Source: Diphasiastrum complanatum (lineage: Eukaryota > Streptophyta > Lycopodiopsida > Lycopodiales > Lycopodiaceae). From it: DNA of 64,000 nt. Each line of letters begins with the position of its first letter. The first letter of the stretch is position 1. Made by a program: the position numbers and the translations under genes. Under the pieces are notes generated by a model, which was given only the letters and a program-made list of their open reading frames with translations, was not told the origin of the DNA and made no database searches. Location: contig CM055095.1 of NCBI GenBank assembly GCA_029204225.1, positions 67,481,940-67,545,939 of the forward strand, read 5' to 3'. Positions 12,012 through 40,800 of this stretch are shown here, piece after piece.

Positions 12012-12720
12012 TTAGAGGATGGATTCAAAATCAGCAACCTCAACAAAATAAGATGTCATAGGAGGAAAATAACATGTTGCTATAAAGACATCGGGGACCC
12101 GAGGCACTCTTGTGCCTAGGGAAATTACATATTTCTTTTTGCTGTCAATGAATTTCACTTGTCCATCCATATATACCCTACTTGATTCACAAGCTTCTTG
12201 GAATACTTTCCTCCTTTCTTCAACTTGCAAATATGTGAGGTCATCATCCAGAAAAATAGTTGCTCCCTTTAGTTTAGCTTTAAGGTGTAACATTGATCGT
12301 CTTTCTTCTAATGAGGTGAAGCAGATGATGATGAGGGTGGCATTTTTTTTGTTTGTTTTCCAAGCATGATCCATGCCTTTACTATTGTGACTTGATGTGG
12401 TGAGGCCTTACCATCCTCTGTCGTGAATAATCATGCCCAAGTTCTTTATGTTGATGCAACTCTTGCTCTAGCTCTTGGATTTTCGTGGTGGTGTGCATGG
12501 TGTCCCTTGCACACATAGCTTGCTTAGTTCTTCTTCCAATGTAGAAATCTTGGCTCCCATTGGATCCCTCTCTTCCAACCACGATCTAACATTTGCTTTA
12601 AGTTGCATCATATCACTTTTCCGAAACTCCATTGCTAATTGTTCAAGGTAGGAAGATAGGTACTGCTCATATGCTCTTAAGGGGGTGTAGAGTGTCGGAA
12701 GAGGTAAAATAGAGGCCGAG
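12012..12720 (-). pseudogene. Antisense LINE relic (copy I): ORF1 fused to endonuclease piece
   Basis: The minus-strand frame 12374-12012 matches the ORF1 C-terminal domain of copy C: a FTSLE segment, then FLDDDLTYLQVEERRKVFQ, then YMDGQVKFIDS. It runs directly into VFIATCYFPP of the endonuclease, which in copy C is about 390 bp further on. The ORF1 stop and the endonuclease N-terminus are lost or scrambled, though GC-rich remnants of the junction (CCTCGGGTCCCC) remain at about 12090-12105. Upstream (12720-12375) a broken coiled-coil-like stretch corresponds to the middle of ORF1. It is too divergent to be active. Confidence 0.75.
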
Positions 12721-32531: not shown

Positions 32532-32581
<50 letters not shown>

Positions 32582-35500
32582 CCATGGCCCCTCCTCCTCC
32601 TCGCGCCCCTGCTCGTAGATCAGCACGATCCCCAGCCACCTCCTCACTCACCTCCCTCGCTCACCACTCACCTCCCCTCGCTGCCCCTTCCCCTAACCCC
32701 CTCGCTGCTCCTTCTCCTTCCCTCGCTGCTCCTCCTCCTTCTCCTTCCCTCGCTGCCCCTTCCCGTAACCCCCTCGCTGCCCCTTCTTCCCCCCCCGCTG
32801 CCCCTTCCCTCGATGCTCCTTCTTCCCCCCTCGCTGCCCCTTCCCTCGCTGTTCCTTCCCCTTCCCCCCTCGCTGCTCCATCCCCCCCCCCCCTTGCTGA
32901 CCTCCCTGATCTCCTAGCTGCCACCCCCTCACCCATCCTCCTCGCTGACCCCTCCTTGTCACCCCCCTCACCTCACCCCCTCGTTGATCTCTCACCTCAC
33001 CCCATTGTCATTCCTGCCCCCCCCCTCGCTGCCACTTCACCTCACCCCCTTGATGACCCATCTCCCTCTCCTACTACAACTCTCACCCCCCTCTCTGATG
33101 GCTGCTCCCCTGATTCAGCTCCTCTTCTATCTTCTGACCCTATTCTTCCCACACCGATCATTGCTCACTCTTCCTCCTTCACGGCACCACAGTCTACAGC
33201 CACTATTCCGTATACGCCTTCTAAATCAATTGAACTTTTTTCATCTTGGCAGATTGATCAATTCAAGGCAGATTTCCAATTTTTGCGGTATGAAATTTCA
33301 CAGCTGAAAGGAACGGTTACTTCTTTGATCAACGAGAAGAAGCTATTGCAGTCCAAGGTTGCCTCACTCGAACAATCCATCGGAATCAAACAGGCCGCAG
33401 CTTCGGAATCCACCACCAACATGCTACGGGAGCTAGAAACCAAGATTGAGAAGCAACACGAAGAGGCCCTTTCCTGGGCATCAGTTTTGAAAAAGGGCAC
33501 CAAACCCAGCGCTCCCATCTCCTCAGTTATCTCAGCCACCATCTCGGAAGAGAAATCTCGAGACCAAAAATCCCACAATATTAGAGTTCGTGGAGTTCTA
33601 GATACACAGGATGCATTGGCTGAAGCTAAACGCTTTCTTGACATCACTCTCGGGCATAGGACAGAGGGGTTAGACACCGCATGGAGGACCACTAGAGATG
33701 CAGCCACACTCATTCTTCGTTTCACCTCCCTCGAGAGCCGTCGAGATGCTTTGCGGTGCAGAGCTAAGCTACGTGGTACCACTATCTACATGGACGACGA
33801 CCTCACATATATCCAGGTAGAGGAGAGGCGTAAGGCCTTTCAGGCAGCCCGTGAGTCTGGCAGACGAGTCATTTACCGAGATGGACGAGTGCTTTTTCTT
33901 GACAGCGCACCTAGCAACTCCCAGTGCTAGGGATTTGGGGTCCCCGGGTTCGGGAGTGCTCCGGGGCCCCACCCACACCATCTCCGGAATGGAGTATGGA
34001 ACTGTGATGGTTTACTCTCATCTTCCATTGCTGGCGACTTGATCGATTTCATCACTGACAGGGATTTACTGCTCTTTATGGAGACTCATGAGAGTCAGGA
34101 GAGAGGATTACCTATTTTTCCAGGATACAAATGGGATTCTGTGTACAGACTTGAGACTAGATCAGCTAGCGATCGTGGATCCGGAGGTGTTGCATGTTTA
34201 TACAGAGAGTCTCTTCATCCGAGCATTGAGTTCATCAGACACGACGAGCATGCACGGTATATATGGATTCATATTACTGGGCAGGATATTGGGTTGGACA
34301 GGGACCTCTTTGTGGCGGCCTGTTATTTTCCTCCAGAGTCTTCGTCCTTTGCTGAGGGCACAGGTTCACCCTACCTTGATTTATCGCCTGATATTATCAG
34401 ATTCGCAGAGCGGGGGCATATTCTCCTCACTGGAGATTTTAATGCCCGAACCTCTTCACGACAGTCAGAGTTCTATGACATCACCGACCAGCTCCGCGTT
34501 CATGCCTTTGACAGCGATGATATGGGAGTTACCAGGATTTCAGAGGACAACTTGGGACCTACTACCCCTTACGGTGAGCATTTATTGCAGTTTGGAGAGG
34601 CCCATGAGTTAGCCATTTACAATGGCCTAACTTGTTGGCCAAAATCTGGCAGTTATACTTGTCACCCTCACAGTGGTGGACATAGTGTTGTGGATTATCT
34701 CATGGGATCACCATCTTCCATACCTCTCATCTCTGATTTTCATGTATCTCCCACCACTCTCTCTGATCATTCCTTTCTCTCCTTCGCTATCGGCCGCCTC
34801 CCACCTCCCCAGCCATCCTCACACCCCCTGCTTACACGGGCACCCAAGTATACATTCAGTTCTCTCTTTACACCAGTCTACCAGGAGTTCCTAACCTCAT
34901 TGCTCCATTCCTTCCCTCGCGATAGTACAGTCGAGACTCAAGCTGCCTTTCTTAGCACTTCTCTTCATACCGCTGCTTCCCTTCCTTGTCCATCTAAACC
35001 CCATAAAAGCAGAGGCACCCGCTCCTCATCGATACGACCCCCACACCCCCCGTGGTATGATGCTGAATGTCGCTCTCTTCGTCAGCTTGTCACCCATGCC
35101 CGCACTCACGATCCTCATCTCCTCCACTCCGCCAGGCGCTCTTACCGTCACACACTCCGCCGAAAAAAGCGTATATATGATGACTCCGAAGGAACGCGTC
35201 TTGTTGATCTTCTCTTCAGTTCCTCTTCAGGCGCCTTTTGGCGTGAGTTTATCCCTCGTGCTCCACCACCCCTCCTGGATGACCTTCGCATATGGACCGA
35301 ATACGCTACCGAACTATATACCATACCCACTGACGCACCCATCTCTATCTCCCCACGCCCCTCTGAGTTCACCTTCTTCACATCTGACATGGTACTTATG
35401 GCCATCAAGAGAATGAAGTCCCATAAAGCAAGAGATATCGAAGACCTTGAATCTGAACTCCTAACCCATGCTTCCGACCTCCTTGCTCCCACACTAGCCA

Positions 35501-37742
35501 CTCTCCTCAATTCCGCCGTTGTCTCTGGTTTCCCCTCATCCTGGTGCACCAACATCATCCACCCTATTCATAAAAATGGTGATCCCATGATTCCTGGTAA
35601 TTACCGCACCATCATGATCGGACATGTTCTCACGAAGCTCTATGGTACCATACTCCAGTCTGCAGTGAGTTCAGAGGCGGAAGCTCGGAAATTACATGCA
35701 TTGGGGCAGGCAGGTTTCCGATCTCATTATTCTACCACTGACCATATTTTTACACTTCGAGCCTTGATCGAGGAAGCTAAGTACAGGAAAGAGAGGGTTT
35801 ACTGCTGTTTTGTAGATTTCAGGAAGGCCTTCGATTCTGTACCACGCTCCCTGCTCATTCAGAGACACTGTATCCCCGACCAGAGAGGGTTTGTAGAAGC
35901 AGCTGGATTGTTTACAAGGATTTTGTACCAGATGGGGGTTGGGGGTGAACATTGCGAAGACCAAGGTTATGGTCTTCAACACTTCTCGAGCCTTCATGCA
36001 GCGCCAGGAGCTCATCCTAGATGGACATGCCTTAGAGGTAGTTTCCTCTTATACCTATTTGGGGATACTCCTCTGGTTCTACCTTCAGCATGCGGCAAGC
36101 TGCCACCACCCGACTTGGGAAGGGGCATTCCTCTCTTGTTCAGCTTGAGCGGTTCTGTTTCAGGAAGCTCATCCGAGATGTTCGCAGTAAGTGTAGACTC
36201 TTTGATACTATTGTCACCCCCACAGCCTTATATGCAGCAGAGACATGGTGCACCGACCTCCCTTCATCACATTGGGCCAGCATTTCACGATTGCAGACCA
36301 CCATGTTAGCCCGTATGATTCGGGCGAAGCCCTCGGTTCCACATGAGATCCTTCTTGCAGAGTTTGCCGTTCCACCCATTCAGATATATGCCGCGTTCCA
36401 GCTTATCACATACATTCAGAGAATCCAGGCTCTGCCCGATGAGGATATGAGATATACACAGACAACACTTGTCTCCTCACACTTTCTTCATGACCAAGGT
36501 TATCGACTATCGTGGTTCTCTCAGGCATCCCATTTGCTCCTTGAGTCATTTGGTATCTCCATTACAGAGCTCCCCTCAGGTACTCATCAGTATATCAAGC
36601 GCATCTTATATTGGGCCTATCTCGACCGTGCTTGGGGGCGACAACTTGGGGTTAAACCCGGCTACTACTTGACTCATTTTATTGAGCTTGACATAGCAAG
36701 GTTCCCGGTCTTACCACATTATTTGGACTCGAGACTATCACATTGCCTCAGATTTACATTGGGACAGCTCCGTGTATCATCACATCAGTTGGCTATTGAG
36801 ACTGGTAGATTCCAGGATACCCCGAGAGAGGAGCGGATTTGCCAGTTATGCTCTTTAGAGGAGGTGGAGTCAGAGGAGCACTTTATCTTTAGGTGCCCGG
36901 TATATTACGAGATCAAAGGGAGATACCACTGTTTGTTCCGAGACACGCCTGTCACCTTACGATCGCTCATAGCTTATGAGGATTCCCGATGCGCGGCACT
37001 CATGATACGAGAGATGTTTATACTACGACAGGATTTGTATCAGACAACCCAGCCGAGTCAGGTTTCTCAGCCTCAGATCACTGCTTTCTTCTCCAGGAGG
37101 AGAGGACGTTTTGATGACGGTGACGATGATGATGATGACTTACTTGCCCACAGAGACCAGAGACAGCGTCCCACACATACCCATGTTGCAGCACGAGCTA
37201 CTCGACCTAAAGACCTCTTCATCCTCTCAGACGACGTCAGAGACCACTAGTGGCCCTTCATGCCACAGGCCGTATTACATCCTTCTATATCATCAGCACC
37301 AGCAGGACAGGACTAGATGATAGCGTCATACCTCACTCATGACTGTTAGCAGTATACATGCTCCCACATGTTTCTAATAGCATCACATCTATTTCAGTTT
37401 ATAGCTTTAGCTCTAGATTGCTACTTTTGTTATTGTTTTGGAGACGTTTCATACGCTCTTATGGTTACCACATACTTGACATGTACATTTACTAGTCTTA
37501 TATGCCTTTTGGCATGGAAAAGACATTAATAAAGCTTTCTTTCTTTCTTTCTCTCCTGATCCGCTCCTGGCCTGCTCCTGATCTGCTCCTGGCCTTGCAT
37601 TGTCCGCGTCTGATCCGCTCCTGGCCCAGCGATGGTGGTGATGGCACCTAATCTGTACCTAGCCCACTCCTGATCCGCTCCTGGCCCTGCAATCCACTCT
37701 TGGCCCAGTGATGGTGGTGATGGCACCTGATCCGCCCCGTCC

Positions 37743-37803
<61 letters not shown>

Positions 37804-40800
37804 TATGGCCCCCCTCGCTCCACACGTAGCTCCTCCCGCTCCCCTACCCCTACCGCTGCCATCTCTTCCTCGTTGGCTGCTGCCATCTCCTCCATCTCCT
37901 CCTCGCTGGAATCAGCCCCCCCCTCGCTGTCCGCCCACCCGCTATCCTCGCTGGAACCCCCCCCCCCCCCCCCCCCTGTATTCGCTACTGCCCAACCCCC
38001 TGCCCTCGATGTCCGCCCACCCCTGCCCCCGCTGCTTGTCCAGACCCTGTACTCGCTGCCTACCCACCCCCTGCTGGTCCAGACCAGACCCTGCCTTTGT
38101 TGCCTGTCCATCCCCCCTTGCACTCGCTGCCTCTGATGCAACACCCCCCCCCCTGCCTCTGCTCTTCCTTCCCCTCTTTCATCTTCTTCTTCTTCCACCT
38201 CTTCTACATCTTCATTGATCTCCAATCCTATCAATCTGGCCATTCTTCCTCCTGGGAAGCTGACCAAATGAAAGCGGATTTCTAGCTTTTGAAACAGGAA
38301 TTTTCAAAACTGTAGGGAATAGTGGTCACCTTACTCAAAGAAAAGAACCTGTTGGAATCCAAAGTTGCCTCATTGGAACAAGCGATCAGTACTAAACAAG
38401 TTGCGGCCTCGGAATCGGCTACCACTATGATACGGGAATTTGAAAATAAGATGGAATAACATAAAGAAGAAACCCTCTCATGGGCAATAGTATTGAAGAA
38501 AGGCACCAAGCCTAGCGCTCCCATCTCCTCGGTCATCTCAGCCACCATTTCGGAAAAGCGGTCAAGGGAGCAAAAGGCACATAAAATTAGGGTTCGTGGC
38601 ATACCAGACACACAGGATGCCATTGTCGAGGCTACGAGATTTCTTGAGACCACTCTAGGATATGTGACAGATGGGCTAGATACAGCTTGGAGGACCACCA
38701 GAGATGCAGCTACATTGATCGTTCGCTTCACATCCCTAGACAGCTGCAGAGAAGCTTTACGCTGTAGATCCCAGTTATGTGGCACTACCATATATATGGA
38801 TGACGATCTTACCTACATCCAGGTTGAGGAGAGGCGTAAAGCCTTCTAGGTTGCTCGAGAGACTGGTAGACGGGTTATATATCGAGATGGCCAGATACGA
38901 TTTGTTGCTGGCACCCCTAGGAGTTCCCAGAGCTAGGAATTTGGGGCCCCCGAGATTGGGAGCATCCCGGGGCCCCATCCATACCATCTTCAGATTGGGG
39001 TATGGAACTGTGATGGCATCCACTCATCTTCTACAGTAGGTGATCTGATTGACTTTATCACTGGTCGAGACCTATTGTTTTTCATGGAGACTCACAAGAG
39101 CCAGGTGCGCGGTTTACCCACCTTCCCGGGATACAGATGGGATTCAGTATACAGATCTGAGACTAGATCAGCCAGTGGCCGTGGTTCGGGAGGAGTGGCT
39201 TGTCTATACAGAGAGTCCCTTCATCAGATGTTTGAGTTTGTCAGGCATGATGAACATGCACGATATATTTGGCTTCATATCACAGGACGAGTGATTGGTT
39301 TGGACAGGGATATCTTCATTGCTGCCTGCTATTTTCCTCCAGAGTCCTCCTCCTTTGTTGAGGGTGTTGGCTCACCTTATTTGGACCTTTCAGTGGATAT
39401 TATCAGATTTGCAGAGCGAGGGCATATTCTCCTCACTGAGGATTTTAATGCCCGAACAACTTCATGACAGACAGAGTTCCATGATGCTACAGATACAGTT
39501 TGGTGAGGCACATTAGTTAGCCATTTATAATGGCCTACCTCACTGGCCTAATTCTGGCAGCTATACTTGTCATCCTCACAGTGGCGGTCATAGTGTGGTT
39601 GATTACCTCATGGGGTCACCGTCATCCATCCCTCTCATTCATAGATTCCATATCTCCCCTACCACCCTCTCCAATCATTCGTTTATCTTCGCTATTGACC
39701 ACCTTCCACCATTACAACCTCTACACCAGTCCATCCTTTCCCGTGCAACCAAATACACCTTCCACCCCCTCTCCATCCCACTCTACCAGGAATCTCTCGC
39801 CTCCTTACTTCACTCTTTTCCACACAGTGAACCGCTTGAGTCACAAGCCGCCTTCCTCACCACGTGTCTCCACACTGCTGCTGCTTTCGCTTTCCCTTCT
39901 AAACCTCATAAACACAAACCAGTGCATCCACAATCATCCCGACCTTTCCATCCACCGTGGTATGACGCGGAATGCCGATCCCTTCACCACTCTGTCACAC
40001 ATGCTCGTTTCCACGCCCGCCATCTCCTCCGCTCCTCACGACAATTGTACAATCGTACACTCCATCGCAAAAAATGTGCCTATGATGACACCGAAGGTAA
40101 CCCGTCTTGTGAACTTCCTTCTCAGCTCCTCCTCTGGTGCCTTTTGGCGTGAGTTTATCCCTCGTGCCCCACCCCCTCTACTGGACGATTTACATATCTG
40201 GACCGACTATGCTACCCAGCTTTACACTATACCCACTAATACGCCCATCTCCATCTCTCCTCGACCTTCAGACTTCACCATTTTCACCCCTGACCTGGTT
40301 CGGGCAGCAATCAAAAAGCTGAAAACCCACCGCACCAGGGACATTTAAGACCTTGAATCTGAGCTATTGATTCACGCCTCCGATACTCTTTCCCCTACCT
40401 TATCCACTCTCCTTAACCATGCCGTTGTTGAGGGCTTCCCATCCTCTTGGTGCACCAACATCATACATCCTATCCATAAAAATGGTGACCCCATGGTACT
40501 TGGTAATTAACGCACTATTATGATTGGACATGTTCTCGCGAAGCTATATGGCACCATCCTCCAGTCTGCAGTTAGCTCAGAGCAGAGTCCAGGAGATTAC
40601 ATGCTTTGGGTCAGGCAGGGTTCCGCGCTCATTATTCCACTACATATCACATATTCACACTTCGAGCCCTCATTGAGGAAGCTAGACAGGGTACACCACG
40701 AGAGGAGAGACTATGCCTGCTATGACCCCTTCATGAGATAGAGTCCGAGGAGCATTTCATCTTCAGATGCCCCATATATTATGAGATTAGAGGGAGATAT

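Follow-up and report, generated by a model that had tools for sequence, protein, structure and literature searches.

The window (the whole 64,000-nt stretch of Diphasiastrum complanatum DNA analysed here) carries two copies of a LINE, C and D, that raise the question of how an ORF2 lacking a usable start codon would be translated. ORF1 ends in TAG, ORF2 continues in the same frame, and the first in-frame ATG of ORF2 lies 3′ of the codon for the Asn of the motif VWNCDG, which we take to be an endonuclease residue with a catalytic role; this arrangement had been noted in a preliminary description of the locus, and the positions given there were right for both copies. The ORFs of copy C span 32584–37250, and copy D follows head to tail from 37805 to about 41390. 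The alignment of the two copies is gapless over 33237 to about 34476 (offset 5006), with TAG, Asn and ATG at homologous places: in copy D the TAG is at 38934–38936, the Asn at 39006 and the first in-frame ATG at 39084. The features that concern us are the following.

32584..33930, plus strand: ORF1 of copy C, from the ATG at 32584 to the TAG; 448 aa.
33928..33930, plus strand: UAG between ORF1 and ORF2 of copy C; the next base is G.
33931..33936, plus strand: 6-nt spacer, GGATTT in copy C; the D group has GAATTT or GAATTC.
33937..33970, plus strand: stem-loop 1 (predicted), with GGGG, a 1-base bulge at 33941, CCCCGGG, a loop and a 3′ arm ending CCGGGGCCCC.
33978..33999, plus strand: candidate stem-loop 2, from RNAalifold on an 18-sequence alignment.
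33931..36309, plus strand: ORF2 of copy C, open directly from the stop and encoding the endonuclease and part of the RT.
34000..34002, plus strand: conserved endonuclease Asn codon (VWNCDG), 5′ of the first in-frame ATG.
34078..34080, plus strand: first in-frame ATG of ORF2, just 5′ of a conserved Glu (METHES).
36042..37250, plus strand: rest of ORF2 of copy C in another frame, ending in TAG; copy C is broken in the RT.
38934..38976, plus strand: candidate readthrough signal of copy D (decayed), with TAG, spacer and stem-loop.

The 6-nt spacer and the GC-rich stem with one bulge are present in both copies, as had been described; the context of the stop, given earlier as (C/A)AG-xGC-TAG-G, has CAG in both (CAG-TGC-TAG-G in C, CAG-AGC-TAG-G in D) and is otherwise kept.

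The ORF1 protein of copy C has a Pro/Ser/Ala-rich N-terminus and a conserved C-terminal part, and gave no significant match to Pfam or PDB. ORF2 of copy C encodes an APE-type endonuclease (PF03372, E 5.3e-10, 39.9 bits, cut-off 24.5) and, 3′ of it, an RT that is broken in this copy (PF00078, E 1.4e-6, 28.6 bits, just below the cut-off of 29.6) and that matches the RT of an R2 retrotransposon (chain 9nl2, E 2.7e-5). Near 36000, within the RT domain, copy C falls out of the ORF2 frame and its C-terminal part continues in a different one; copy D has five other in-frame stops within the part compared. Both copies end in ATTAATAAAGC, then a TTTC-rich tail. Copies B, C and D stand head to tail with TTTC-rich 3′ ends, C beginning within the 3′ region of B, and a long (CT)n run lies just 5′ of the ORF1 ATG in C and D (32533–32586 and 37741–37807); the copies look as if they were inserted into or at CT-rich microsatellites. 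No fully intact copy was seen among the loci surveyed, most of which were covered for 1.5 kb on each side of the junction, and intact copies of the family may exist. At one locus (L021), ORF1 is open for 517 codons from stop to stop and ORF2 for 668 codons past the TAG; the frame breaks in the RT and reopens from codon 787 to 1154, and Ser replaces the Asn.

The family was surveyed in this one genome (1.74 Gb, 5176 contigs) through three sets of 30 loci: one from a 401-nt copy C query (best 40 of 2716 candidates scored), one from a copy D query (best 40 of 2641 candidates scored), and one chosen independently of the stop as the first 30 of 800 matches to the VWNCDG motif (control, 2 matches). 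The 90 loci include C and D, one place that was taken twice (L059 and L084) and several near-duplicates, and are thus not 90 independent cases. The agreement of the two frames first seen in C and D extends to 82 of the 89 alignable loci (83 of 90 counting L072), the seven off-frame loci comprising four single-base indels, a deletion (L071) and one 5-nt insertion common to two loci. Control 66-nt stretches are off frame about as often (7/90 and 4/90), so selection cannot be read from the keeping of frame within individual copies; what matters is the agreement between lineages. The two loci with the 5-nt insertion (L053 and L057), which lies in the loop and takes ORF2 off frame, are 99% identical over 3.1 kb.

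The absence of an upstream start codon likewise holds across the family: in the 82 frame-kept loci, the interval from the TAG to the Asn motif never contains an in-frame ATG, and an AUG start 5′ of the endonuclease motif is rejected on this basis. Initiation at the ATG at 34078 would lose the strand carrying the Asn. A protein search for relatives, in which the best 8000 candidates (those with most shared words) were scored, returned eight distant matches; no relatives were found in the scan of viral contigs. P0005–P0007, which come from this search, are LINE proteins of the two-ORF type with an ORF2 start of their own; they resemble this LINE in the order of endonuclease and RT and in their motifs, at 25–26% identity over 80–82% of the query. 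The Asn motif of copy C aligns with their WN(A/I/V)HG, and these predicted proteins begin with a Met upstream of it (the Asn is at residue 26, 16 and 35, respectively), whereas no Met precedes the Asn here.

Ribosomes might instead terminate at the UAG and restart just 3′ of it at a non-AUG codon, in the manner of the AUG restarts of SART1 and, as proposed, L1, which we hold to be improbable. Such reinitiation is known in LINEs, and SART1 requires a downstream structure for it, according to the accessible text of PMC5972666. Of the 82 frame-kept loci, 80 have the near-start codon AUU at codon +20, 5′ of the Asn, and its retention leaves some room for a non-AUG start; its Ile, however, is explained by the protein, as the relatives read IVSWN or ICCWN at this place, and not one of the 82 loci offers an AUG. 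Reinitiation also needs no frame agreement, yet the distance from TAG to motif is 66 nt, or 69 nt in three related loci (L060, L062, L065) whose 3-nt loop insertion keeps the frame, and the loci that deviate are scattered.

Constraint on the encoded proteins reaches across the stop. Between C and D, dS is 1.49 and dN/dS 0.113 in ORF1 (last 226 comparable codons), dN/dS is 0.084 from the TAG to the first ATG, and dS is 1.29 and dN/dS 0.083 in the endonuclease; from this old divergence, and dN/dS of about 0.1, it follows that both lineages have long been selected on both proteins while the TAG was present. In the same comparison, protein constraint is weaker in the last 16 codons of ORF1 (dN/dS 0.352) and the first 21 codons of ORF2 (0.425). 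Codons +15 to +28, which lie 5′ of the first ATG, have a pN of 0.056, lower than in ORF1 (0.111) or the endonuclease (0.191), and are therefore probably translated.

Beginning 6 nt past the UAG, the RNA is predicted to form a GC-rich stem of 11–12 bp, in which GGGG, a bulge and CCCCGGG pair with the 3′ arm (stem-loop 1 above). This hairpin could be a functionless by-product of a GC-rich linker rich in Gly and Pro, basal leakiness of the UAG being enough to yield ORF2 products; we regard this as unlikely, although plain dinucleotide shuffles give only modest z-scores (−0.92 to −2.69 over six stretches) and the covariation reported below is thin. Against a codon-preserving null, in which the protein is fixed and codons are sampled at copy C usage, all 13 sequences tested give z between −3.05 and −4.62 (−3.49 for copy C, −4.39 for copy D), with 0 to 7 of 2000 samples as good. 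The strongest 48-nt fold among 1123 windows of copy C starts at the TAG, and the strongest among 691 windows lies at the TAG in each of the 17 copies tested, from eight subgroups.

Synonymous sites tell against the same alternative. Across 67 between-lineage pairs of 13 hand-picked sequences from six lineages, sliding 14-codon windows have their lowest pS, 0.24, at codons +4 to +17 (next low values elsewhere, 0.28 and 0.34), and codons +1 to +14 have a pS of 0.22 and a pN of 0.18. With one hand-picked sequence for each of the six lineages and non-overlapping windows (those with too few synonymous sites dropped), the first 13 codons past the TAG, over the stem, have a pS of 0.12 and a pN of 0.17, and rank first of 31 windows (next lowest pS, 0.25); this minimum keeps rank one in all six leave-one-lineage-out runs, being closest without lineage F (0.09 vs 0.13). 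That synonymous sites are held over the stem while amino acids vary points to selection on RNA and not on protein; this suppression and the codon-preserving null lead us to reject the view that the structure is a side effect of the encoded protein.

The bulge base after GGGG is free: among 55 distinct sequences it is T in 28 (Val), C in 21 (Ala), G in 4 (Gly) and A in 2 (Asp), while the adjoining arms are nearly fixed, which again argues against a functionless hairpin. This base had been read in the preliminary description as position 5 of the stem, paired T-G in C and C-G in D; since a pair would not allow all four bases it is better taken as unpaired, and position 5 as a covarying stem pair is rejected. 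Conservation of pairing, which had been proposed as a test together with compensatory change, stood in its first part. In a chosen set of 18 sequences pairing holds in 93.4% of cells, against 91.9% in shuffles (none of 500 reached it), and falls to 33–75% when the partner is slid along; the figure for the 55 distinct sequences is 92.8%. Double-sided changes are rare, at or below the shuffling level: 2 of 16 pairs in the 18 sequences, a count that 95 of 500 shuffles also reach, and in the 55 sequences double changes equal to shuffles (323 of 500 reach the observed count). These alignments do not include the three loci L063, L071 and L072. The covariation, thin as it is, would fit the stem and is not decisive.

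Downstream of stem 1, tandem hairpins or a pseudoknot are possible on these models. RNAalifold places in stem-loop 2 (33978–33999) one pair that is changed from UA to CG in 2 of the 18 sequences; an alternative 4-bp pseudoknot, in which GGAG of loop 1 pairs with CUCC or CUUC, has 98.6% of cells paired and no both-side change, and would compete with stem-loop 2. The gammaretrovirus-type signal has a compact pseudoknot behind a spacer of 8 nt, as against 6 nt here. Rfam, searched with 33700–34300, returned nothing at E ≤ 5. Taken together, the synonymous suppression and the codon-preserving null favour a functional RNA element after the UAG.

The hairpin might also be part of an IRES, with ORF2 initiating independently at a non-AUG codon, or ORF2 might be translated from a separate transcript. 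The strong structure at the start of ORF2 and the conserved AUU would suit such independent initiation, but it leaves unexplained why the frame is shared at 82 of 89 loci, why the stop is nearly always UAG and why AUG is absent, and we consider it very unlikely.

The stop between ORF1 and the in-frame ORF2 is TAG at 87 of the 90 loci, the other three having TAA (L077), a deletion across the stop (L071) or no alignable sequence (L072), and TAG is followed by G at 86 of the 88 loci counted. When the flanks were held exact and any codon was allowed at the stop, TAG occupied 653 of 669 genome sites, a retention beyond chance; a sense codon therefore does not replace TAG in most copies, as the 16 sites that differ show. 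Among 100 such exact-context sites listed, the sense codons found in place of TAG are one CAG and two TAC. The C-type context with up to two mismatches gave 950 sites (control, 0); of the 100 of these that were listed, each with exact flanks, 97 have TAG and 3 TAC. Each lineage in which the junction is present carries TAG (one TAA).

Three copies have TAC in place of TAG within identical flanks (C1:60633118, C3:10713465 and C8:25296550), and may form a small sublineage whose ORF1–ORF2 fusion is constitutive. A search with a diverged ORF1 fragment of the window (12332–12141), in which the best 150 of 8078 candidates were scored, gave a longest open frame of 590 aa, and three places were examined. 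The first (L092), which was chosen for this long frame, has GAG at the stop position, with the ORF1–ORF2 frame continuous over the stretch read; it lies at C5:26446471–26446655, and its closest group includes one TAG copy (L064) and one TAA copy (L077). In the second (L093) ORF1 ends in TAG and the endonuclease motif sits in another frame, and in the third (L094) a TAG follows ORF1 and the endonuclease part is absent. A sense codon at the stop position thus occurs, rarely. Positions 12332–11900 of the window (minus strand) and L093 represent a diverged and decayed relative in which ORF1 is followed by GC-rich inverted repeats that differ in sequence, and it may have its own version of the signal.

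The weakest alternative, that a formerly single ORF1–ORF2 frame decayed and so acquired the TAG (by deamination of a CAG, for instance), can point to the TAGs that copy D gained at 38847 (CAG in C) and 38283 (CAA in C) and to GAG, CAG and TAC at the stop position in a few copies, but is scarcely credible and is rejected, given TAG at 653 of 669 sites and in each lineage with the junction, RNA-level constraint right after it, and a copy C in which 22 CAG codons are left unmutated over 32584–36000 and this TAG is the only in-frame stop.

Reinitiation at the AUU, an IRES, decay and a functionless hairpin each cover only part of the evidence. Programmed UAG readthrough would account together for the common frame, the absent AUG, the near-constant UAG-G, the protein constraint on the leader 5′ of the first AUG and the RNA constraint just 3′ of the UAG, which are features of the copies themselves. 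The best reading is in our judgement a likely one: that the element makes ORF1p and some ORF1–ORF2 fusion by programmed readthrough. The preliminary description had come to the same interpretation, with a small amount of fusion, and the frame, ATG, stop and RNA constraint as tested here lend it support at the sequence level. In this mechanism, the G after the UAG, the short spacer, the bulged GC-rich stem-loop of 11–12 bp and possibly a second hairpin or pseudoknot would disturb termination, so that a near-cognate tRNA could occasionally enter at the UAG; the majority of ribosomes would then yield ORF1p and a minority the ORF1–ORF2 fusion. It is from the patterns above that we infer the occurrence and rate of readthrough, the role of the fusion and the gag-pol-like action of the product. 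Counting against readthrough are the thin covariation, the modest z-scores of the plain shuffles, the fact that the loci surveyed, all from one genome, yielded no fully intact copy, the occasional sense codons, the TAA of L077, the conserved AUU, a spacer of 6 nt and not 8, and the failure of Tca2 described below.

We lean, with less assurance, towards a wider claim: that this LINE family, with hundreds of copies and lineages separated by dS >1, evolved a virus-like type III cassette, in which the RT would be made only as a tail of ORF1p and ORF2p would be bound covalently, and in fixed proportion, to the ORF1p assembly, the gag-pol solution having been reached independently. How bicistronic LINEs come to make a little ORF2p is known for a few elements (AUG restart in SART1, and in L1 as proposed). 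Readthrough, if true, would answer this in another way, one that can be compared directly with gag-pol, and would predict a fused ORF1–ORF2 protein with its stoichiometry built in. In the open-access literature on the ORF1–ORF2 junction, readthrough and recoding, a body that takes in few of the subscription papers, we found no report of a LINE with stop-codon readthrough; the mechanism is known, and is apparently new for LINEs.

The LINE strategies in print, in the accessible parts of the sources, are reinitiation and a 2A-type sequence (PMC5972666) and frameshifting (PMC5009743). SART1 restarts at an AUG and needs a downstream structure, and termination–reinitiation has been proposed for L1 (PMC5972666). 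Like these, the present element is of the non-LTR kind and has both ORFs on a single RNA, and it shares a (here predicted) downstream structure with SART1; SART1 and L1, on the available text, restart at an AUG (an overlapping stop–restart site and the ORF2 AUG are named) and make separate proteins, whereas here there is no AUG and the frame is the same (PMC5972666).

An in-frame stop between coding regions is described for the LTR retrotransposons Tca2, SIRE1 and rice RIRE2 in the accessible portions of PMC2194720 and PMC2754532. Tca2 has a stop, a purine spacer and a putative pseudoknot, yet gave no readthrough in baker's yeast, according to the part of PMC2194720 available. The LINE resembles Tca2, as there portrayed, in its in-frame stop and putative downstream structure, and differs in that Tca2 is an LTR element and uses UGA. 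In SIRE1, the stop stands ahead of the envelope-like gene.

The closest parallel is with type III viral readthrough (gammaretrovirus, epsilonretrovirus, Tombusviridae), for which the accessible text of PMC3542737 gives UAG, a 3′ G or purine-rich octanucleotide, and a structure after about 8 nt. Unlike these, the LINE is not a virus, its spacer is 6 nt as opposed to about 8, its pseudoknot is putative, and its signal is a predicted one. Like them, so far as that text describes them, it has a UAG, a 3′-adjacent G, an RNA structure predicted a few nucleotides downstream and a polymerase that would be made as an extension of the upstream protein; UAG-GGA of the C group fits the UAG-GGR listed there for Tombusviridae (PMC3542737). 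If readthrough is true, a chromosomal element present at hundreds of copies would join a readthrough class described mainly from viruses.
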